DNA from: Thauera sp.
Lineage (GTDB): Bacteria; Pseudomonadota; Gammaproteobacteria; Burkholderiales; Rhodocyclaceae
NCBI GenBank assembly: GCA_024235615.1
Contig: JACKMB010000001.1
Coordinates: 124,001 to 188,000 of the forward strand
DNA: 64,000 nucleotides
Direction of reading: 5' to 3'
The position numbers were made by a program, and so were the translations under genes. The notes below the pieces were generated by a model that did not search any database, had not been told where the DNA came from, and saw only the letters and a list, made by a program, of their open reading frames with translations. This document shows positions 12,054-63,773 of the stretch, piece after piece. Every line of letters starts with the position of its first letter. Position 1 is the first letter of the stretch.

Positions 12054-15000
12054 ATGAAGCGCATGCTTTTCAATGCGACGCAGGCCGAAGAACTGCGCGT
12101 CGCGATCGTGGACGGTCAGAAACTGATCGACCTCGATATCGAATCGGCCGCCAAGGAAGAACGCAAGAGCAACATCTACAAGGCCGTCATCACGCGCATC
12201 GAGCCCAGCCTCGAGGCAGCTTTCGTGGACTATGGCGCCGACCGCCACGGCTTCCTGCCGTTCAAGGAAATCTCGCGTTCCTACTTCCAGCCCGGCGCGG
12301 ACGCCAAGGCCTCGATCAAGGAGGCCCTGAAGGAAGGCCAGGAGCTCATCGTCCAGGTCGAGAAGGACGAGCGCGGCAACAAGGGCGCTGCGCTCACCAC
12401 CTACATCTCGCTCGCCGGCCGCTACCTGGTGCTCATGCCCAACAACCCGCGCGGCGGCGGCGTCTCGCGCCGCGTCGAGGGCGACGAGCGCGCCGAACTG
12501 CGCGAGAACATGGATCAGCTCGACGTGCCGCAGGGCATGAGCCTGATCGCCCGCACCGCCGCCATCGGCCGCAGCGCGGAAGAGCTGCAGTGGGACCTCA
12601 ACTACCTGCTGCAGCTGTGGACTGCCATCGAGGGCGCGGCGCAGAGCCAGTCCGGCGCCTTCCTGATCTACCAGGAAGGCAGCCTGGTGATCCGCGCGAT
12701 CCGCGACTACTTCCAGCCCGACATCGGCGAGATCCTGATCGACACCGACGACATCTACGACCAGGCCACGCAGTTCATGGCCCACGTGATGCCGGGCAAC
12801 GTCGCGCGCGTGAAGCGCTACAGCGACGACGTGCCGCTGTTCTCGCGCTTCCAGATCGAGCACCAGATCGAATCGGCCTACTCGCGCCAGGTGAACCTGC
12901 CGTCGGGCGGCGCCGTGGTCATCGACCACACCGAGGCGCTGGTCTCGATCGACGTCAACTCGGGTCGCGCCACCAAGGGCTCGGACATCGAGGAGACCGC
13001 CTTCCGCACCAACTGCGAGGCGGCCGACGAGATCGCCCGCCAGTTGCGCCTGCGCGACCTCGGCGGCCTGATCGTCATCGACTTCATCGACATGGAGTCG
13101 GCCAAGAACCAGCGCGAGGTCGAGAACCGCCTGCGCGACGCCCTGCGCCACGACCGCGCCCGCGTGCAGACCGGCAAGATCAGCCGCTTCGGCCTCCTCG
13201 AGCTGTCGCGCCAGCGCCTGCGCCCGGCGCTCGCCGAGACCAGCTACATCACCTGCCCGCGCTGCAACGGCACCGGCCACATCCGCAGCACCGAGTCGTC
13301 GGCGCTGCACATCGTGCGGATCCTCGAAGAAGAGGCGATGAAGGACAACACCGGCGCCGTGCACCTGCAGGTTCCGGTCGACGTCGCCACCTTCCTGCTC
13401 AACGAGAAGCGGGTCGACATCGCCCGCATCGAGATGCGCCACAAGGTGCAGCTCATCATCGTGCCCAATCGCCACCTCGAGACGCCGGCGCACGAGATCA
13501 TCCGCCTGCGCCACGACCAGCTCAACGCCGAGGACATCGCGCTGGCGAGCTACCAGATGGTGCAGAAGCCCGTCGAGGAAGACGCCCGCCTGCCCTCCAA
13601 GACCAGCGAGCGCCCGACCCGACCCGAAGCCGCGGTCAAGGGCATCGCCCCGTCGCAGCCGGCCCCGATGGCCGCCGCCGAGCCGGCCCCCGCGCCCGCC
13701 CCGACCCCCGCAGCGCCCGAGCCCAAGGGCCTGATCGCGCGCATCATGGGCTGGTTCTCGGCCGGCAAGACCGCGCCAGCCCCTGCACCCGCAGCGGCGG
13801 TCGAAGACACCCCCAAGCGCGAGGCGCGTCCGCGCGGCGAGCGCAGCGGCGAAGGGCGACGCAACGGCGGCAGCAACGGCGGGCGCGGTCGTCGCGGTGA
13901 GCGCGACGGCGAGGCGCAGGCCTCGACCCGCGGCAACCGCAGCGAGCGTGGCGAGCGCAGCGACCGTAGCGAGCGCAGCGACCGTGGCGAGCGCAGCGAC
14001 CGTGGCGAGGGCAACGAGCGTCCCCAGCGCATCGCCACCGAGCGCGCGGAGCGCCCCGAGCGGGCGGAACGCACAGAGCGCGGCGAAGGCGGCCGCCGTG
14101 GCCGCAGCCAGCGCGGCGAGCGCGCCGCGGAAGGCGCCGAGCTGCGCGCGACGCCGGTAGAGGACGATCTGCTGAAGGCCGCCAGCGCTGCGGCCATGAC
14201 CGCGGCCGTCGCTACCCCGGAGGCAGGCGCGACCGAGGTCGTCGCCAGCACCGAAGCCGCTGAAGAGGAAGGCACCCCGTCCGAGAAGCGCCGCCGTCGC
14301 GGCCGTGGTCGCGGACGCCGCGCGAGCGAGGCGCAGGGCACCAGCGTGGGCGCCGAAGCGGGCGCCGAAGCGGAGGTCTCCTCCGCAGAAGGCTCGCCCG
14401 CGACGGCAGGATCGCCGCTGATCGCTGCCGGCAGCGCCACCGCGGAGCTTGCCGACGCAACGCTCGAACGCGACGGCTCGTTCATGGAAGCGTCGACGCC
14501 TTCCCCTGCAAGCGTGGAGGAAACGGCCGAGCTGCCGATCGCCAGCAGCGCGGCGCACGACATCGAACCGGTCGTCACGCCTGCGCCGGAGGCCCTCCTG
14601 GCTCCAGTGGCCATCGGCGGGCCCGTGGAGGCCACCACGGAGATCGCGACCACGATGGGGGTCGCCGCGCCAGCCCCGGCTGAGACGATCGAGACGGCAT
14701 CGGTCGAACCCGTTCCTGCTGCCGAGGAAGCAGTCGTCGAGCATGCGGCCGCAGCGGAGGCGCCGGCTGCCGAACTGCCCGAGCCGGAAGCGGCTCCGGT
14801 GATCGAGTCGGCTGCTGCCGAGGAAGCGCCCGCGGCTTTCGAGGGGGCTGCCCCGACCATGCCGCTCGTCGACATCGAGCCCGCACGCGCGCCCGAGCCG
14901 GAACCTTCCGCAACGAAGATCGGCGGCACGACCTCCGAGGCAGCCGCGGAGCTTCGAACGGCGGAGGCTGCGCAGCCTTTCGACATCGACGCCCTCGAGG

Positions 15001-19688: not shown

Positions 19689-22600
19689 TCACGCTGCGGC
19701 CGGGTCGGCCAGGCGCAGCGCCTCTTCGATATCGACTTCCACCACCCGCGAGACGCCCTGCTCCTGCATCGTCACCCCCACGAGCTGCTGCGCGAACTCC
19801 ATCGTGATCTTGCTGTGGCTGATGAAGATGAACTGCGTCTGCGCGGACATGCGCTTGACCATGTTCGCATAGCGCTCGGTGTTCGTGTCGTCCAGTGGCG
19901 CATCCACCTCGTCGAGCATGCAGAACGGCGCCGGATTGAGCTGGAACATCGAGAACACCAGCGCGATCGCGGTGAGCGCCTTCTCCCCGCCCGAGAGCAG
20001 GTGGATCGACGCGTTCTTCTTGCCCGGCGGCTGGGCGACGATCTGGATGCCGGCGTCGAGGATCTCCTCGCCGGTCAGCACCAGTTCGGCCCGTCCGCCG
20101 CCGAACAACTGCGGGAACAGGGCGCCGAACTGCCGATTGACCGTATTGTAAGTGTCCTGAAGCTGCTCGCGCGTCTCGCGATCGATGCGGCGGATGGCAT
20201 CCTCCAGGGTGTCGATGGCCTGCAGCAGGTCCTCCGTCTGCGCGTCGAGGTAGCCCTTGCGCTCGGAGGCGGTCGCGAGCTCGTCGAGCGCGGCCAGGTT
20301 GACGGCGCCGAGCTCGGCGATCTCCCGCGCCAGGCGGGCGACCTCGCGCTGCAGGGTGGATTCTTTCGGGTCGGCGGCGAGCAGCGGCTGGAGCGCCGTC
20401 TCGTCGGCACGGGCCTCGACGAGGCGCTCCTCGAACTGGGCAACCGCGATTTCAGCCGCCTGCAGCGCGAGGCGCAGCTCGGCTACGCGCGCGCGGATCG
20501 GCGCCGCCTCGTGCTCGGTGCGCAGGCGCAGCTCCTCGACCTGCTTGAGCGCCGCGGCGGCCTCGGCGAGCGCGTCGCGGCGGGCGGCGAGCGCGGCCTC
20601 GCGGCGGCCGCGCAGCGCCAACGCCTCCTGCAGCGCGTCGGCGCTGCGGTGGTCGTCGGTGGCGTCGAGCTCGGCGCTGCGGGTGGCGAGCTCGGCGACG
20701 ATGCGCTCGAGCTGCTCGCCGGCGAGCTGCTGGTTGCGCGCGATGTCCTCCAGCTTGCCCGCGCATTCGCGTTCGGAGAACCGTGCCTCCTGCAGCTCGC
20801 GCGCCGCCGACTGTTCGAGCGCGCGCGCCTCGCGCACGGCATGCTCGCGCTCGCGCAGCACCTCGGTGGCGGCATCGAGGCGCTCGCGCTGCAGCTCGGC
20901 GAGCTCTGCCGCACGCGCCTGCTCGAGCTCGGCACGCGTGAGGTGCTCGCGCTCGGCGGTCTCCAGATGGACGATGTCTTCGAGGTCGCGCGCGAGCTGC
21001 TCGCGGCGCTCCTCGGCGCGAGCACGCGCCTGCGCGAGCTTGAGCACCTCGACCTGCTCCGCGTGCACCTGCGCCTGCAGCGTCTGCAGCTCGCGGCGCA
21101 GGCCGTTGATGCGTTCCTGCAACTCGCTCGCCGCCGTCTCGGCCATCAGCAGTGCGTCGTGCGCCAGATGCGCCTCGTCCTCGCGCGCCTGCAACTCGGC
21201 GGCAAGGCCCTCGATCTCGCGCTGGCGCTCGATCACGCCGTGGGTGCGCGCATCCGGGGCGTGGTGGATCAAGGCGCCGCGGGTCAGGATCTGTCCGCGC
21301 GGCCCCACCAGGCAGGTGCTCGGTGCCAGCTGCGCGCACCGCGGCAGCCAGTCGTCCAGCCGCTCCACCGCCCACGCGCCGGCCAGGAAGTCACCCACCA
21401 GCCCGCGCAGGGCCGGATCGCGCACCGCGACCAGGCGCGCAAGCGCCCGCGCATTCGCGCCTGCCGGCGCTCCTACAAGGGGGGGCGCTTCGGCGCTGGG
21501 CCCGGGGCCGCCGGAGAGCGCGAATGCCGTGGCTGACGGGTGCGTCGCCTCGTCGCACGCGTTCGCCCCTGCCGGCGCTCCTACAGGGGGGGGTGTTTCG
21601 GTGCTGGACGCAGGGGCGGCGGCAGGCGCGAAGCAGGCTGCGGGGTCGAGCGTCGATGGGGTAACCGGAAGGGCGATGGCGAGCGACTCCGGTGGCGTCT
21701 CGTCGAGCACGGTGTGCGCGGCCGCAAGCGCCACCGCCGCATCGGGCGAGGTGAGCGCGGACAGGCGCTCGCGCAGCACGGCTTGCACTGCCTCGTCCCA
21801 GCCGTCCTCCACCTGCAGCTGCTTCCACAGCGGCGGCAGCGCGTCGAGGCCGTGACGCTTCAACCAGTCTCCCAGCTTGCCCTGGGACTGCACGCGCGCC
21901 TGCAGCTGCACCAGGGCGTCGCGCCGCGCGCGCAGCTCGGTCAGACGGCGCTGCACCGCGCGCTCATGCTCGAGCGCGGCCTTCAGTGCGGCCTGCGCGT
22001 CGGGCAGGCGCGGCTGCGCCTCGGCGAGCGCCTGCTGGAGCGCCTCCAGCTCGTCCTGCACCACCTCCAGGCGTGCCTCGCGCTCGGCGAGGACACGCTC
22101 GTCGGGGCCGACGATCGCGCCGCGCTCGCCTTCGAGCCGGCCGCGACGCTGCTGCAGGGCTTCGAGCGCCCGGACGGCGCTCGCGCGTCGGGTCTCCTCC
22201 ACGCGCAGCTGCTGCTCGGTCTGGGCGAGCTCGCGGCGCGCCGCGGCCATGGTCGCGTCGGCGGCCTGGCGGGCGGAATCCAGCTCGGGCAGGCGATCGG
22301 CGATCTCCAGGTGGCGGGCTTCGGCATGCTCGGCGCGCAGCGCGGCGTTCTCGGCGAGCGCCTGCCAGCGCTCGCGGTCGGCGGCGAGCGCCTCGCGGCG
22401 CGAGGACCAGTGCCCGCGGTCGAGCTCGAGCTGCGCCAGACGCGCCTCCAGACGCTTGCGCGCCTCGCCGAGGTGCTGCAGCTCGGTCTCCAGGCGCGCG
22501 ACCTCGGCGCTCACCGCGAAGAGGTCGTTCTGCGCCACATGCACCGCTTCGGAGGCCTCGAAGTGCGCGTCGCGTCGCGCCTCCACGCCGGCCTCGAGCT

Positions 22601-23399
22601 CCTGCAGGCGGGCGCTGTCGGCCTCGATGCGCCTGCTCGCCTCGTCGAGCGCCGCTGCTACGCGGCCGTGCTCGGCGCGCGCCTCGTTGCGCTTGACCAG
22701 CCACAACAGCTGCTGCTTCTCGACGTGCGCGGCGTCGAGCGCGCGGTAGCGCGCCGCCACCGCGGCCTGCGCCTCCAGATGCACGATGCGCTCGCCGAGC
22801 TCCATGCGGATGTCGTCGAGGCGGGCGAGGTTGTCGCGTGCGTCGCGCAGTCGGCCCTCGGTCTCCTTGCGCCGCTCGCGGTACTTGGTGACGCCCGCGG
22901 CCTCTTCGAGGAAGCCGCGGATCTCCTCCGGGCGCGCCTCGATGATGCGCGAGATCATGCCCTGCTCGATGATCGCGTAGGCGCGCGGCCCCAGGCCGGT
23001 GCCGAGGAAAAGGTCGATCACGTCCTTGCGGCGGACGTGCACGTTGTTGATGTAGTAGGTCGACTCGCCCGAACGGTCGAGCACGCGCTTGACCGAGATC
23101 TCCGCATAGCGCGACCACTGCCCGGCTGCCCTGCCCTCGGCGTTGTCGAAGACCAGCTCGACACTCGCGCGCGACACCGGCTTGCGCGTGGTCGAGCCGT
23201 TGAAGATCACGTCCTGCATCGACTCTCCGCGCAGCGCGGACGCGCGCGTCTCGCCCAGCACCCAGCGCACGGCGTCGATGATGTTCGACTTGCCGCAGCC
23301 GTTGGGCCCGACCACGCCGACGAGGTTGCCGGGGGTGAGCACGGTGGTGGGATCGACGAAGGTCTTGAAACCGGCGAGTTTGAGCTTGGAGAGACGCAC
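19689..23399 (-). CDS. smc: Chromosome partition protein Smc
   Basis: 1236 aa. Walker A is VGPNGCGKSNIIDAVRWVLG near residue 32; the signature HLLSGGEKALTAIAL and Walker B FCMLDEVDAPLDD are near the C-terminus. Two long coiled-coil arms surround a hinge at about 540-740. The start is taken as GTG at 23399 (VRLSKLKLAGFKTFVDP), the family N-terminus; the upstream ATG would add 26 unconserved residues. The protein is longer than the usual 1150-1190 aa. Much of the excess is an Ala/Pro-rich segment around residues 595-655, part of which is encoded by two REP-like repeats in the same frame, each giving VGAPAGANA. Confidence 0.95.
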   Translation of the reverse strand: MRLSKLKLAGFKTFVDPTTVLTPGNLVGVVGPNGCGKSNIIDAVRWVLGETRASALRGESMQDVIFNGSTTRKPVSRASVELVFDNAEGRAAGQWSRYAEISVKRVLDRSGESTYYINNVHVRRKDVIDLFLGTGLGPRAYAIIEQGMISRIIEARPEEIRGFLEEAAGVTKYRERRKETEGRLRDARDNLARLDDIRMELGERIVHLEAQAAVAARYRALDAAHVEKQQLLWLVKRNEARAEHGRVAAALDEASRRIEADSARLQELEAGVEARRDAHFEASEAVHVAQNDLFAVSAEVARLETELQHLGEARKRLEARLAQLELDRGHWSSRREALAADRERWQALAENAALRAEHAEARHLEIADRLPELDSARQAADATMAAARRELAQTEQQLRVEETRRASAVRALEALQQRRGRLEGERGAIVGPDERVLAEREARLEVVQDELEALQQALAEAQPRLPDAQAALKAALEHERAVQRRLTELRARRDALVQLQARVQSQGKLGDWLKRHGLDALPPLWKQLQVEDGWDEAVQAVLRERLSALTSPDAAVALAAAHTVLDETPPESLAIALPVTPSTLDPAACFAPAAAPASSTETPPPVGAPAGANACDEATHPSATAFALSGGPGPSAEAPPLVGAPAGANARALARLVAVRDPALRGLVGDFLAGAWAVERLDDWLPRCAQLAPSTCLVGPRGQILTRGALIHHAPDARTHGVIERQREIEGLAAELQAREDEAHLAHDALLMAETAASELQERINGLRRELQTLQAQVHAEQVEVLKLAQARARAEERREQLARDLEDIVHLETAEREHLTRAELEQARAAELAELQRERLDAATEVLREREHAVREARALEQSAARELQEARFSERECAGKLEDIARNQQLAGEQLERIVAELATRSAELDATDDHRSADALQEALALRGRREAALAARRDALAEAAAALKQVEELRLRTEHEAAPIRARVAELRLALQAAEIAVAQFEERLVEARADETALQPLLAADPKESTLQREVARLAREIAELGAVNLAALDELATASERKGYLDAQTEDLLQAIDTLEDAIRRIDRETREQLQDTYNTVNRQFGALFPQLFGGGRAELVLTGEEILDAGIQIVAQPPGKKNASIHLLSGGEKALTAIALVFSMFQLNPAPFCMLDEVDAPLDDTNTERYANMVKRMSAQTQFIFISHSKITMEFAQQLVGVTMQEQGVSRVVEVDIEEALRLADPAAA
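21454..21476 (-). repeat. REP-like element inside smc (copy 1)
   Basis: A full match to the dispersed 23-bp repeat. On the smc coding strand it starts GTAGGAGCGCC and ends GGCGCGAA and is read as Val-Gly-Ala-Pro-Ala-Gly-Ala-Asn (about residues 642-649) in the Smc hinge region. Confidence 0.9.
21562..21584 (-). repeat. REP-like element inside smc (copy 2)
   Basis: Second copy, one base off consensus, exactly 108 bp from copy 1, so the frame and the VGAPAGAN peptide are repeated (about residues 606-613). The surrounding PPPVG and PPLVG context suggests that a longer unit was duplicated. Confidence 0.88.
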
Positions 23400-23665
23400 A
23401 GCGGGCAGTGGGAAGACGGCGGGACGTGCAGCCCGGCGATCCGCCCCGGCGCACCCCGCGTTTGCGGCCGGCATCATACCACCGCGCCGAAGGCATCCCG
23501 CGCGTTGGCCTCGTATCGAAACCTTATGCGGCGCGGTCAGGCAAGCGCGCCGCGCCGCGCGATCCCGCGCCCGCGCGTGCCTCGTGGCCTTCCAACGGGC
23601 GCCGCCGCCATACGCAGGTATACTCGGCGCCCGCGTCCATTGCCGGCCAAGGAGCCCGCGTCCCC

Positions 23666-24873: not shown

Positions 24874-25695
24874 ATGCACGCTCTGCAATCGATCATCGAC
24901 ACCGCCTTCGAGAACCGCGCCAGCCTGTCGCCCGCTGCCGCCCCCGCCGAGATCCGCAACGCGGTGGAAGAGGTCATCGCCGGCCTGGACGCCGGCACGT
25001 TGCGCGTGGCCGAGAAGAAGGACGGCCAGTGGGTGGTCAACCAGTGGATCAAGAAGGCGGTGCTGATCTCCTTCCGCCTGCGCGACAACGAGGTGGTGCA
25101 GGCCGGCGGCCTCAACTTCTTCGACAAGGTGGCGACCAAGTTCGGCGACTACACCCCCGAGCAGTTCCGCGAAGGCGGCTTCCGCGTGGTGCCGCCGGCG
25201 GTGGCGCGCAAGGGCAGCTTCATCGGCAGGAACGTGGTGCTGATGCCCTCGTACGTGAACATCGGCGCCTATGTGGATGAAGGCACGATGGTCGACACGT
25301 GGGCCACCGTCGGTTCGTGCGCGCAGATCGGCAAGAACGTGCACCTGTCGGGTGGCGTCGGCATCGGCGGCGTGCTCGAGCCGGTGCAGGCCGGCCCGGT
25401 CATCATCGAGGACAACGTCTTCGTTGGCGCGCGCTCGGAGGTGGTCGAGGGCGTGATCATCGAGGAGAATGCGGTGCTGTCGATGGGCGTGTACATCGGC
25501 ATGAGCACCAAGATCTACGACCGCGAGACCGGCGAGGTGACCTACGGCCGCGTACCGGCCGGCGCCGTCGTGGTACCGGGCAGCCTGCCCTCGGCCTGCG
25601 GCAAGTACAGCCTGTACTGCGCCGTGATCGTGAAGCGGGTCGACGCGCAGACGCGCGCCAAGACCGGCATCAACGAGCTGCTGCGCGGCGCCTGA
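24874..25695 (+). CDS. dapD: Tetrahydrodipicolinate N-succinyltransferase
   Basis: 273 aa. Succinylates tetrahydrodipicolinate with succinyl-CoA. The left-handed beta-helix hexapeptide repeats are clear ([38 protein letters not shown], about residues 119-156). It forms a pathway cluster with dapC and dapE. The ATG lies 12 bases after an AGAGAG purine run. Confidence 0.97.
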
Positions 25696-25709
25696 GGGGG
25701 CGGGCGGAA

Positions 25710-25929
25710 TTCGCGCCTGCCGGCGCTCCTACATGAACCTTCACGCATCACCCCTGCAGGAGCGCCGGCAGCCGCGAACATAGAACCGCCACGCCCCTGT
25801 AGGAGCGCCGGCAGGCGCGAACATCGAACCGCCGACGCCCCTGTAGGAGCGCCGGCAGGCGCGAAGACCGGCGCGATGCGTGTGTGGCCAGTGGTGCAAG
25901 CCCGGATGCGCGCCTGCCGGCGCTCCTAC
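25710..25929. repeat. Cluster of five REP-like elements between dapD and pilU
   Basis: Copies at 25710-25732 (-), 25756-25778 (+, variant), 25799-25821 (+), 25843-25865 (+) and about 25907-25929 (-). The outer copies face inward, which would let the transcript fold into long hairpins. The 338-bp gap (25696-26033) otherwise holds only the pilU ribosome binding site and presumably its promoter. Spacing is irregular (20-46 bp), so this is not a CRISPR array. Confidence 0.88.
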
Positions 25930-26033
25930 AGGCGGGCGCCGCGAAGATGCAGACGTAGCGGCGTTTGCAGCAAGCGTGCGCTTGCGCTGCGTGCGGGCGG
26001 CTTATTTTTTGGTGACGACAGGAGTCCGACGGC

Positions 26034-37012: not shown

Positions 37013-37095
37013 CTAATCGAGGATGAAGGTGCGCCCTTGCAGGCGCGGCGCCAAAGCAGCGCAGAGATGGAGGTAGGCCGACCCCGTGCGCTGCT

Positions 37096-37284
37096 CTCGC
37101 GCCTGCCGGCGCCTACAGAAGCCGGCGCGGGTCGCGAGCACTTGGAGGTGCGCCGGCAGGCGCGAATGGGCCGCGGGGGAAGGGATGCGCGTCGGGTGGC
37201 CGAGCGCCGCTTTCGCGCCTGCCGGCGCTCCTACAGGAACCGGCGCGGGTCGGGAGCACTTGTAGGAGCGCCGGCAGGCGCGAA
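37096..37284. repeat. Four REP-like elements upstream of the iscR promoter
   Basis: Copies at 37096-37116 (-, shortened), 37143-37166 (+, variant), 37212-37234 (-) and 37262-37284 (+), alternating in orientation. They fill the gap (37013-37323) between the iscR promoter and the 3' end of cysE, so they lie in the cysE 3' untranslated region. Nothing else is seen in this gap. Confidence 0.88.
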
Positions 37285-37323
37285 AGCGGCCGTCGGTCCA
37301 TCGACGCGGAGGGCGCGTGCTGC

Positions 37324-38079
37324 TCAATCCACCATCCGCGACAGGCGCCCCGGGTCGAAATCGTCGTTCGGCGCCACGGTGTCGTCGAGCTTGATCCCGG
37401 CGGCCTCGAGGCGCGCGAGGATGGCCTGCAGACGGCGGTCGGTCTCCACCGAATGGTCGAGCAGTCCGTGCAGCGCCTTGGCGACCGGGTCGTCCATGTC
37501 GCGGGTCACGCCGTAGGCGCTGAAGCCGATCTGCTCGGCCTTCTGCTCGCGCGCGGCATCGCGCTCGGAATCGAGGATGCGGGCGGGGTTGCCCACCGCG
37601 GTGGCGCCGGCGGGCACCGGCTTGACCACCACCGCGTTGGAGCCGACCTTGGCGCCGTCGCCCACCGTGAAGCCGCCGAGCACCTTCGCGCCCGCGCCCA
37701 CCACCACGCCGCGCCCCAAGGTGGGGTGGCGCTTGGTGCCGCGGTAGAGCGAGGTGCCGCCGAGCGTGACCCCCTGGTAGATCGTGCAGTCGTCGCCGAT
37801 CTCCGCGGTCTCGCCGATCACCACGCCCATGCCGTGGTCGATGAACACGCGGCGGCCGATCCTGGCACCGGGGTGGATCTCGATCCCGGTAAGCAGGCGG
37901 CCGATGTGGCTGGCGAAGCGCCCCGCCCAAAACCAGCCGCGGCGCCAGGCGCCGTGGGCGAGGCGATGGAACATCAGCGCGTGGATGCCGGGGTAACAGG
38001 TCAGCACCTCGAGCGTGGAGCGCGCGGCGGGGTCGCGCTCGCGGACGCTGGCCAGGTCTTCTCGGAGGCGGCTGAACAT
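37324..38079 (-). CDS. cysE: Serine O-acetyltransferase
   Basis: 251 aa. Makes O-acetylserine, the carbon acceptor for cysteine synthesis. Left-handed beta-helix hexapeptides ([37 protein letters not shown], about residues 67-110) with the catalytic His/Asp region, plus the short-type N-terminus [20 protein letters not shown]. It is of the shorter CysE class often found beside isc operons. The start at 38079 removes an unconserved 24-residue extension. A promoter with an IscR-like box lies upstream, which suggests control by Fe-S status. Confidence 0.93.
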
Positions 38080-38150
38080 GATGAAGGGACTCCCGGGTGT
38101 GCGCAGAAACAAGAAAGCGGAGCGGCACCGCCCAAGCGGGCGGGACACCA

Positions 38151-38176
38151 ATTCCCGATCATTTTAATCGACTATA
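38151..38176 (-). promoter_or_regulatory. cysE promoter with IscR-type-1-like operator
   Basis: Minus strand: -10 TATAGT (38171-38176); no good -35 was found. A 25-bp box at 38151-38175 (begins ATAGTCGATT, ends TCGGGAAT) matches the IscR type-1 consensus at 21 of 25 positions and the iscR box at 19 of 25. Its register relative to the -10 is identical to that in front of iscR. Confidence 0.7.
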
Positions 38177-38213
38177 CCGCACCCCCGAAAGCCCGCGCCT
38201 TGCGCGCAGCCGC

Positions 38214-38474
38214 GTTCGCCCCTGCCGGTGCTCCTACAAAAGCTTCCGACCCGCGCCGGTTTCTGTAGGAGCGCCGGCAGGCGCGAAAGCGGCGCACGGT
38301 CACCCGACGCGCGTCCCTTCCCCCGCGGCCTTGTTCGCGCCTGCCGGCGCTCCTACAGAAACCGCCGTGCTTCCGGACGTCTGCAGGGGCGGCGCAAGCC
38401 GCGAGCCGGGCGGTCGCGCAATCGACGCGGGGGGCATCCCTGGCGTGGTCTTCGCGCCTGCCGGCGCTCCTACA
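38214..38474. repeat. Five REP-like elements between trmJ and cysE
   Basis: Copies at 38214-38236 (-, two mismatches), 38265-38287 (+), 38334-38356 (-), about 38382-38407 (+, degenerate) and 38452-38474 (-). They alternate in orientation at 40-75 bp spacing and fill the trmJ 3' region (38177-38511). Apart from the cysE promoter no other feature is seen. Confidence 0.87.
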
Positions 38475-38511
38475 AGAACCCCCGCAAGATCGTCCGCGCA
38501 GTGTGCAGCGA

Positions 38512-49388: not shown

Positions 49389-49420
49389 TCTCCCCCCCCT
49401 TTGCAGGAGCGCCCACCGCG

Positions 49421-49684
49421 TCGCCGCGACCACCCCATGCAGGAGCTCCGGAAGGCGCGAATCCGGCGACGAAGAGAGCGGCGGCGCATGGACCGCCGCC
49501 CGTTCGCGCCTGCCGGCGCTCCTACAGAAAACCAGCCGCATCGCCGCGACCACCTTATGCAGGAGCGCCGGAAGGCGCGAATCCGGCGACGAAAAGAGCG
49601 CCGGCGCATGGACCGCCGCCCGCTCGCGCCTGCCGGCGCTCCTACAGAAAACCAGCCGCATCGCCGCGACCACCCCGTGCAGGA
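49421..49684. repeat. 120-bp tandem repeat built from REP-like pairs
   Basis: A unit that contains a degenerate + copy and a consensus - copy recurs with a period of exactly 120 bp: 49421-49540, 49541-49660, and a third copy that breaks off about 49684. REP copies lie near 49439-49461, 49503-49525, 49559-49581 and 49623-49645. A few base changes separate the units. The gap 49389-49693 holds nothing else. Confidence 0.88.
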
Positions 49685-54893: not shown

Positions 54894-55763
54894 ATGGCCC
54901 TCCCGCTCCAACGCCACGCCGACGCGTCGCTGCACGCCGCCGTTCCCGTCGCCACCGGCACGCATGACGTGCTTGCCGGCCTGCCTGCGGGCAGCGTGTG
55001 GCAGGCGAGCCGGCTCGCACAGGCTGGCGGGGCGGTGCTGCCGACCGGCTTCGCCGCGCTCGACGCCGAGCTGCCCGGTGGCGGCTGGCCGGCCGGTGCG
55101 CTCATCGAACTCCTCGCCGACCGCCCTGGCGTCGGCGAGCTGAGCCTGCTGCTGCCACTGCTCGGCGCCACCCCCTCCGCACGCTGGATCGTCTGCATCG
55201 CCCCGCCGCTGCTGCCCTACGCCCCTGCGCTGGCGAGCGCCGGCGTGCCGTTGTCGCGCCTGCTCGTCGTGCGTCCCGAACGCCGTGAAGACCTGCTCTG
55301 GGCTGCACGACAGGCCCTGCTGTCGGGCAGCTGCGCCTGCGTGCTGGCCTGGCCACAGCGCATCGACAACGCCGCACTGCGCCGCCTGCAGCTCGCCGCC
55401 GAGGAAAGCGCCACCCCGCTCTTCCTCTTCCGCCACGCCAGCGTCGCCGCGCAGCCCTCGCCCGCGGTGTTGCGGATCGCGCTCGCCCCCCACCCCGAAG
55501 GCCTGCAGCTACGCATCCTCAAGCGCCGCGGACCGCTCTCCACCGCAGCGCTCGTACTCGCTCTCTCACCTGGCGTCGGCAGCGATTCGCGGCTTCCGCC
55601 GCTCCTACACCAGAACCGGAGCCGCGCCGGTTCAGGTAGGAGCGCCGGCAGGCGCGAATTACGGCCCTCGGGCTCACGATCAACCTCGACGGAGTCGGGC
55701 ACACCGCTGTTCGCGGCTTCCGCCGCTCCTACAACAGAACCGGAGCCGCGCCGGTTTATGTAG
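54894..55763 (+). CDS. imuA: Translesion synthesis factor ImuA, C-terminus built by REP repeats
   Basis: 289 aa. The first ~230 residues are a RecA/SulA-like ImuA (VLPTGFAALDAELPGGGWPAGALIELLADRPGVGELSLLLPLL, LWAARQALLSGSCACVLAWPQ). ImuA works with ImuB and the polymerase DnaE2 in mutagenic SOS repair. From about residue 231 the frame runs through a 124-bp tandem REP array, giving RSAGRREL-type peptides, and the stop TAG is inside the last repeat (55761-55763). So about 59 C-terminal residues are repeat-derived and the native end is lost or extended. It begins 22 bp after lexA. Confidence 0.9.
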   Translation: MALPLQRHADASLHAAVPVATGTHDVLAGLPAGSVWQASRLAQAGGAVLPTGFAALDAELPGGGWPAGALIELLADRPGVGELSLLLPLLGATPSARWIVCIAPPLLPYAPALASAGVPLSRLLVVRPERREDLLWAARQALLSGSCACVLAWPQRIDNAALRRLQLAAEESATPLFLFRHASVAAQPSPAVLRIALAPHPEGLQLRILKRRGPLSTAALVLALSPGVGSDSRLPPLLHQNRSRAGSGRSAGRRELRPSGSRSTSTESGTPLFAASAAPTTEPEPRRFM

Positions 55764-60207: not shown

Positions 60208-60282
60208 TGGTGGGCGGTACTGGGATCGAACCAGTGACCCCTGCCGTGTGAAGGCAGTGCTCTACCGCTGAGCTAACCGCCC
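60208..60282 (-). tRNA. tRNA-Val (anticodon CAC), copy 2
   Basis: 75 bases including an encoded CCA. Acceptor arms GGGCGGT and ACCGCCC, D-loop with TTAGCTCAGCGGTAGAGC, anticodon arm CTGCC-TTCACAC-GGCAG giving CAC (Val, GTG codons), and T-loop GGTTCGATCC. Identical to the copy at 60347-60421 by eye. Confidence 0.96.
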
Positions 60283-60346: not shown

Positions 60347-60421
60347 TGGTGGGCGGTACTGGGATCGAACCAGTGACCCCTGCCGTGTGAAGGCAGTGCT
60401 CTACCGCTGAGCTAACCGCCC
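60347..60421 (-). tRNA. tRNA-Val (anticodon CAC), copy 1
   Basis: 75 bases with encoded CCA, same structure and sequence as the copy 139 bp downstream. The pair is probably transcribed together toward lower coordinates, ending at the terminator at 60174-60199. The region 60422-60595 upstream should hold their promoter; I found no clear pair of hexamers. Confidence 0.96.
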
Positions 60422-63697: not shown

Positions 63698-63773
63698 TGG
63701 TGGGTGCTGACGGGGTCGAACCGCCGACATTCGCCTTGTAAGGGCGACGCTCTACCGACTGAGCTAAGCACCC
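63698..63773 (-). tRNA. tRNA-Val (anticodon UAC)
   Basis: 76 bases with encoded CCA. Acceptor GGGTGCT/AGCACCC, D-arm TTAGCTCAGTCGGTAGAGC, anticodon arm TCGCC-CTTACAA-GGCGA giving UAC (Val, GTA), T-loop GGTTCGACC. Lies directly downstream of the HU gene. Confidence 0.96.

Follow-up and report, generated by a model that had tools for sequence, protein, structure and literature searches.

Why should a mobile-type repeat be found repeatedly in smc while nearly all other genes remain free of it? The question is raised by a 64-kb window of DNA (positions 124001–188000 of contig C1 of the 4.01-Mb genome G000, which falls near Parazoarcus and Aromatoleum among the beta-proteobacteria and probably belongs to Thauera), in which the gene for the chromosome segregation ATPase contains a repeated element within the part that encodes its hinge. 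All coordinates below refer to the whole window unless a contig is named.

REP units in the smc hinge

The repeat TGTAGGAGCGCCGGCAGGCGCGAA is present twice on the coding strand of smc, in the same orientation and 108 bp apart. The locus is made up of the following features.

19689..23477, minus strand: smc, chromosome segregation ATPase; longest ORF 1262 aa; TIGR02168 (SMC_prok_B) with 1006.6 bits against a cut-off of 567.35
21562..21632, minus strand: REPIN-like unit 1, Smc residues 616–639, FAPAAAPASSTETPPPVGAPAGAN; its two inverted arms differ from the REP at 4 positions and 1 position
21562..21585, minus strand: REP of unit 1 (1 mismatch), encoding VGAPAGAN with no stop
21609..21632, plus strand: inverted arm of unit 1 (4 mismatches to the REP), encoding FAPAAAPA; upstream of the unit 1 REP copy on the coding strand
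21525..21561, minus strand: 37-bp spacer between the units, about ACDEATHPSATA; searched by blastn-short in a 1.48-Mb sample
21454..21524, minus strand: REPIN-like unit 2, Smc residues 652–675, FALSGGPGPSAEAPPLVGAPAGAN; paralogous to unit 1
21454..21477, minus strand: REP of unit 2 (0 mismatches), encoding VGAPAGAN with no stop
about 21501..21524, plus strand: strongly decayed inverted arm of unit 2; placed by homology with unit 1

The two in-frame copies were described by the original prediction at these places, and both are present as described, with 0 and 1 mismatches. Beyond that prediction, both copies have a decayed inverted partner: the REP copy is preceded by an inverted copy in unit 1 and by a homologous, more decayed arm in unit 2, so that each unit is a decayed inverted pair (REPIN) of about 71 bp with one intact and one decayed arm. 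The inverted arm of unit 2 was not detected in a scan allowing up to 8 mismatches and is assigned by homology; two inverted REPs in a long hairpin were found in unit 1 (4 and 1 mismatches) and in the congener G016 (6 and 0). Two segments of Smc of about 24 residues each (616–639 and 652–675) are consequently REP-derived, and the gene contains REPs wholly within a conserved reading frame that is free of stops. The units differ at 14 of 75 nt and look like copies of one another, in keeping with the duplication that had been proposed. In the 1.48-Mb sample, the spacer has a full-length match only at its own place. As RNA, units 1 and 2 form long hairpins of −37.8 and −41.4 kcal/mol (z scores against shuffled sequences of −4.07 and −2.31), and two intergenic REPINs of the window fold more strongly (−58.6 and −48.7 kcal/mol; z of −9.42 and −5.16). 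A sequencing or annotation artefact was considered and rejected: the ORF is intact, the same insert is present in a species with an Smc that is about 90% identical, and both arms of the protein are under purifying selection.

When the 4.01-Mb genome was scanned with up to 3 mismatches, the TGTAGGAGCGCCGGCAGGCGCGAA pattern gave 1016 sites and the same pattern read backwards, as a control, gave 0. The repeat consists of a TGTAGGA head followed by a 5-bp stem (GCGCC/GGCGC) around a 4-nt loop, with an RNA fold of −10.6 kcal/mol. It has a terminal GTAG outside the stem-loop, a high and mostly intergenic copy number and an associated REP-associated tyrosine transposase (RAYT), and is thus a GTAG-type REP by the marks described in PMC3733652 (Di Nocera and colleagues, 2013). 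The transposase gene is located on contig C5 of G000 (L131; NF047646, 144.7 bits against a cut-off of 80) and is flanked on both sides by matching REPs, which supports the proposal that the element is a mobile-type repeat. Transposase genes are likewise found among their own REPs in G009 and G021, and the corresponding gene of G001 is surrounded by REPs with a different stem, a class with 471 copies in G001 versus 3 in G000. The transposase (PF01797) was not found in the 77% complete assembly of G016, and a plasmid search with the transposase region gave no match. Presence and absence among species suggest that the REPINs may be mobile. The element is stop-free in five of its six frames, with stops only in the TAG frame, and its in-frame reading is therefore not in itself surprising.

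The segment between the GDWLKRH and DARTH motifs comprises 211 residues in the Smc of the window, 141–156 in 79 beta-proteobacterial Smc proteins (80 were fetched and L062 was dropped as an antisense ORF) and 152–189 in those 26 congeners for which the segment is complete. Because the 23 REP-free congeners also span 152–189 residues, the hinge loop was variable in length already before the REPs. The original prediction of 50–80 additional residues is broadly right: the excess is 55–70 residues over the wider group and only 22–59 within the genus. That prediction also withstood the comparison with orthologues on which it had staked itself, since repeat-free relatives lack these residues.

The Smc of G016 is about 90% identical to that of the window and contains exactly one unit at the same place, being 36 residues shorter; the flanks and the loop of this unit are homologous to those of the window. 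Its first arm is closer to unit 1 (5 differences in 24, versus 8 for unit 2) and its REP core is identical to that of unit 2 (0 differences in 25, versus 2 for unit 1), so that the second unit may have been gained in the lineage of the window or lost from G016. G009 is the closest relative as judged by Smc identity (98% in the pieces seen), but its assembly breaks within smc on both sides of the hinge; contigs C97 and C220 stop near residues 393 and 967, which leaves the hinge itself unassembled.

Distribution of REPs in the genome and the genus

REPs with up to 3 mismatches were counted in 1.48 Mb of G000 (37% of the genome; 1260 genes from a home-made gene caller, 87.7% coding). The great majority (346 of 364) are intergenic, ten overlap the 3′ ends of genes and eight are located within called ORFs. 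In all ten of the 3′-end cases the stop codon lies at the TAG of the REP, a use of this triplet that is already noted in PMC3733652. The eight in-ORF copies comprise two in smc, two in the linker of a fused dehydrogenase, three in the C-terminal tail of imuA and one in what, in our judgement, is likely to be a false 5′ extension of a gene. In G009, 106 of 106 REPs are intergenic (397 kb, on contigs chosen because they bear REPs). Within these samples, smc is the sole case of a REP inside a conserved folded domain. A general habit of residing in genes, as in the Rickettsia palindromic elements, was also considered and was rejected on the intergenic counts in the G000 sample and in G009.

Several other features were observed in passing. 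In imuA (window 54894–55763) the ImuA domain stops at residue 213 of 289, and the remaining ORF crosses a REP array and ends at the TAG of a REP. At C1:577330–582081 of G000 (L188, L189 and L234), NuoE/NuoF-like and NuoG-like ferredoxin/molybdoenzyme-type parts are joined in one 1583-aa ORF, which we take to be an NAD formate dehydrogenase of the FdsB–FdsA type, with two REPs in its linker. These parts are separate in the five relatives in which both were read (L235, L238, L240, L242 and L243), with the genes overlapping by ATGA, and a REP pair seems to have fused the two subunits; in G021 (L236) the first dehydrogenase gene likewise runs without a stop to the contig end. Intergenic REP arrays are present in the window at 49416–49655, 25690–25930 and 37092–38493, one of which is a 120-bp tandem duplication with 94% identity. 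A run of degenerate 9-bp repeats at 13928–14035 probably codes for a protein repeat that is rich in Arg and in Ser or Gly. Two identical adjacent tRNA-Val (CAC) genes are located at 60208–60282 and 60347–60421, and a tRNA-Val (TAC) gene at 63698–63773.

Across the genus, a REP is present in the hinge loop of 5 of the 28 congeneric smc genes with a visible loop, in three stem classes, and is absent from the other 23. The loop of G024 contains GTGGGAGCGGCGGCAGCCGCGA, which has another stem and is read in the same frame as VGAAAAA; that of G021 contains TTAGGAGCGCCCGCAGGCGCGAA at a contig end, read as LGAPAGAN, and the second half of the G021 smc was not found; that of G001 contains GCAGGAGCGACATCCGTCGCGA, which is in the reverse orientation, bears the stem characteristic of the family in G001 itself and has 5 mismatches. 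A structural definition of the REP (GYRGGA, a perfect 5-bp stem, a 4-nt loop and GA, with the GYRG head chosen in knowledge of the G001 case) has four matches in 3,978 nt of loops and none either in the remaining 93,750 nt of smc from the genus or in 79 beta-proteobacterial smc genes; it misses the G021 copy and unit 1. A search allowing up to 5 mismatches gave one chance-like match in G025, outside the loop, and one in L021. The sets of sites matched by the three REP patterns overlap.

Among congeners with a visible loop, five of the six that have more than 100 REPs carry one there, the exception being G007 (143 REPs of one class, none in the loop), versus 0 of 22 others (Fisher test, 6.1e-5; 7.3e-4 without G001 and 2.1e-4 with G018, which has 96 REPs, counted as REP-rich); these values are only a guide, since the threshold of about 100 was chosen in knowledge of the data and the species are related to one another. 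In an Smc tree calculated with the loop removed, at least two changes of REP state are required; G026, the sister of G024, has no REP in its loop. By the tree, loop REPs have at least two origins, and the stem classes suggest three arrivals.

Constraint on the insert and its probable origin

Selection was estimated against G016 (L084 only, 1208 aa; the G001 rows were dropped as an antisense ORF). The two arms of Smc have dN values of 0.030 and 0.034 and dS values of 0.238 and 0.275 (dN/dS of about 0.12), versus a dN of 0.194 and a dS of 0.176 for the insert (dN/dS of about 1.1, from 36 aligned codons of one species pair). Because dN in the arms is far below dS and the ratio in the insert is about 1.1, Smc is, judged by these rates, a working, constrained protein with an insert under no detectable protein constraint. 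Purifying selection on the inserted residues, as would mark a domesticated protein segment, was not seen in these 36 codons of one pair, and the domestication that had been claimed finds no support in these rates or in a loop length that varies without REPs. In unit 2 the REP core is identical to that of G016 at 25 of 25 nt, while 13 of the 47 nt of the arm and loop differ. The core retains codons that are rare in the genome (GTA, 1.7% of Val; GGA, 3.6% of Gly; GCA, 4.9% of Ala; AAT, 9.5% of Asn). Gene conversion among many copies would explain the identity of the core, as would a function as DNA or RNA.

The SMC hinge is functionally important. In the AlphaFold model, block means are 43–70 for Smc residues 605–674, falling below 50 for 635–646 and 648–654, and the hinge flanking the insert is mostly at 88–97 on both sides. 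A structural comparison of the model recovered solved SMC hinges, with 5h69_B as the best match (E value 1.7e-7). The inserted segment is thus predicted to be disordered, as the original prediction had proposed, and its view that the repeat is tolerated in the hinge agrees with the intact Smc ORF.

We consider it likely that transposase-driven REP insertions survive in smc in a tolerant, disordered hinge loop. The REP-associated tyrosine transposase would spread GTAG REPs as inverted pairs, one of which would have entered smc in a species ancestral to G000 and G016, at a length-variable loop between the two hinge halves that would be disordered and surface-exposed in the real protein. With an element open in five of six frames and an insert that preserves the frame, Smc would have remained intact. 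The second unit, 36 codons away in G000, would be a copy of the first made by local duplication in frame-keeping steps; it would have been gained there, or else lost from G016. Elsewhere in the genus, species would have taken up other REP classes in the same loop, which would act as a safe harbour, whereas insertions in the rest of smc and in almost every other gene would be purged. We infer that the transposase made the smc insertions and that tolerance, rather than function, explains their survival. Several observations speak against this explanation: tolerance alone predicts REPs in other disordered loops, and a within-domain REP was found in the sample in smc only; the identity of the core (25/25 nt, unit 2 versus G016) points to maintenance of the DNA sequence by gene conversion or function; PF01797 was not found in the 77% complete G016 assembly and the loop of G007, with its 143 REPs, is free of them; and the G001 copy has 5 mismatches and the G021 copy lies at a contig end.

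Tolerance alone also leaves unexplained why one loop was hit in several species, which leaves a little room for a hot spot or a function. It is unlikely that the REP is kept in smc for its DNA or RNA, as a rare-codon hairpin that slows translation between the hinge halves or as a protein-binding DNA site. Such a role would account for a core that is identical at 25/25 nt despite an smc dS of about 0.24–0.28, for the retention of GTA, GGA, GCA and AAT in that core, for units that still fold better than shuffled sequences (z of −4.07 and −2.31) and for the recurrence in five species, but the smc hairpins are weaker than those of the two intergenic REPINs (−37.8 and −41.4 versus −58.6 and −48.7 kcal/mol), 23 of 28 congeners have no loop REP, the orientation is reversed in G001 and gene conversion among hundreds of copies accounts for the identity equally well. 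We regard as similarly improbable the broader proposal that, in REP-rich species of the genus, the Smc hinge loop is a preferred site at which REPs are actively maintained: the element would be acquired repeatedly, its DNA would stay intact as the insert around it decays, and it would serve as a pause or binding element within smc; if true, such a kept REP would link the REP–transposase system to the chromosome-organising machine.

A preference of the transposase, or of recombination between REPs, for something in this stretch of smc would fit two or three independent arrivals in one loop with other sampled genes nearly REP-free. Position and orientation differ, however, among G000/G016, G021 and G001, and the loop sequence is unconserved, so that no shared target is visible, and we hold an insertion hot spot to be very doubtful. 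Still less credence is given to the insert as a selected protein feature, that is, a domesticated longer hinge loop: it has been retained in frame in at least two species and the hinge is important to function, but over the only 36 codons compared the synonymous rate of the insert does not exceed the non-synonymous rate, the REP classes of other species give different peptides and the loop is predicted to be disordered. Survival of transposase-driven insertions in a tolerant loop remains our preferred explanation. The loops of the genus provide a natural series in one SMC hinge, with no REP, one unit, two units or other REP classes. This series shows where additional sequence is tolerated in SMC proteins, and in it the fate of mobile DNA in an important gene can be followed.

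Relation to known REP systems

As in the REPINs and RAYTs described by Bertels and Rainey (2011; PMC3116915), inverted REP pairs appear here as putative mobile units with a RAYT among them; the units analysed there are in extragenic space, whereas two decayed units lie here within a gene. The Rickettsia palindromic elements described in PMC10969869 resemble the smc units in being palindromic and translated in frame within unrelated genes. They differ in being about 150 bp long and often in genes, whereas the REPs of G000 are nearly always intergenic, with smc as the exception; the smc unit, at about 71 bp and with a GTAG head, is set apart from that family by size and description.

The closest precedent is the account of intragenic GTAG REPs in PMC3733652, which describes them within genes of several species, often genes of DNA replication and repair, and includes Thauera sp. 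MZ1T, with 5-bp stems. Dimer inserts described there encode 20–30 amino acids, different REPs are found at about the same recB site in two Xanthomonas species, and either neutral insertion in loops or altered activity is proposed. The main text of that paper contains neither 'smc' nor 'chromosome segregation', its gene list being in Additional file 3, outside that check, and full-text literature searches gave no other report of REPs in smc or an SMC hinge, or of one loop repeatedly hit by different REP classes; among the ten of 634 papers listed by a looser search, no title deals with REPs in smc. The present case adds smc to the 2013 list of REP-bearing DNA-maintenance genes. It shares with the cases described there REPs and dimers in frame in conserved genes, 5-bp stems and the use of TAG as a stop. 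Intragenic REPs were thus already known, Thauera included, and what is unusual is the repeated choice of one loop: unlike the cases described in that paper, five species and three stem classes are represented here in a single loop, together with an expansion by one 36-codon unit.
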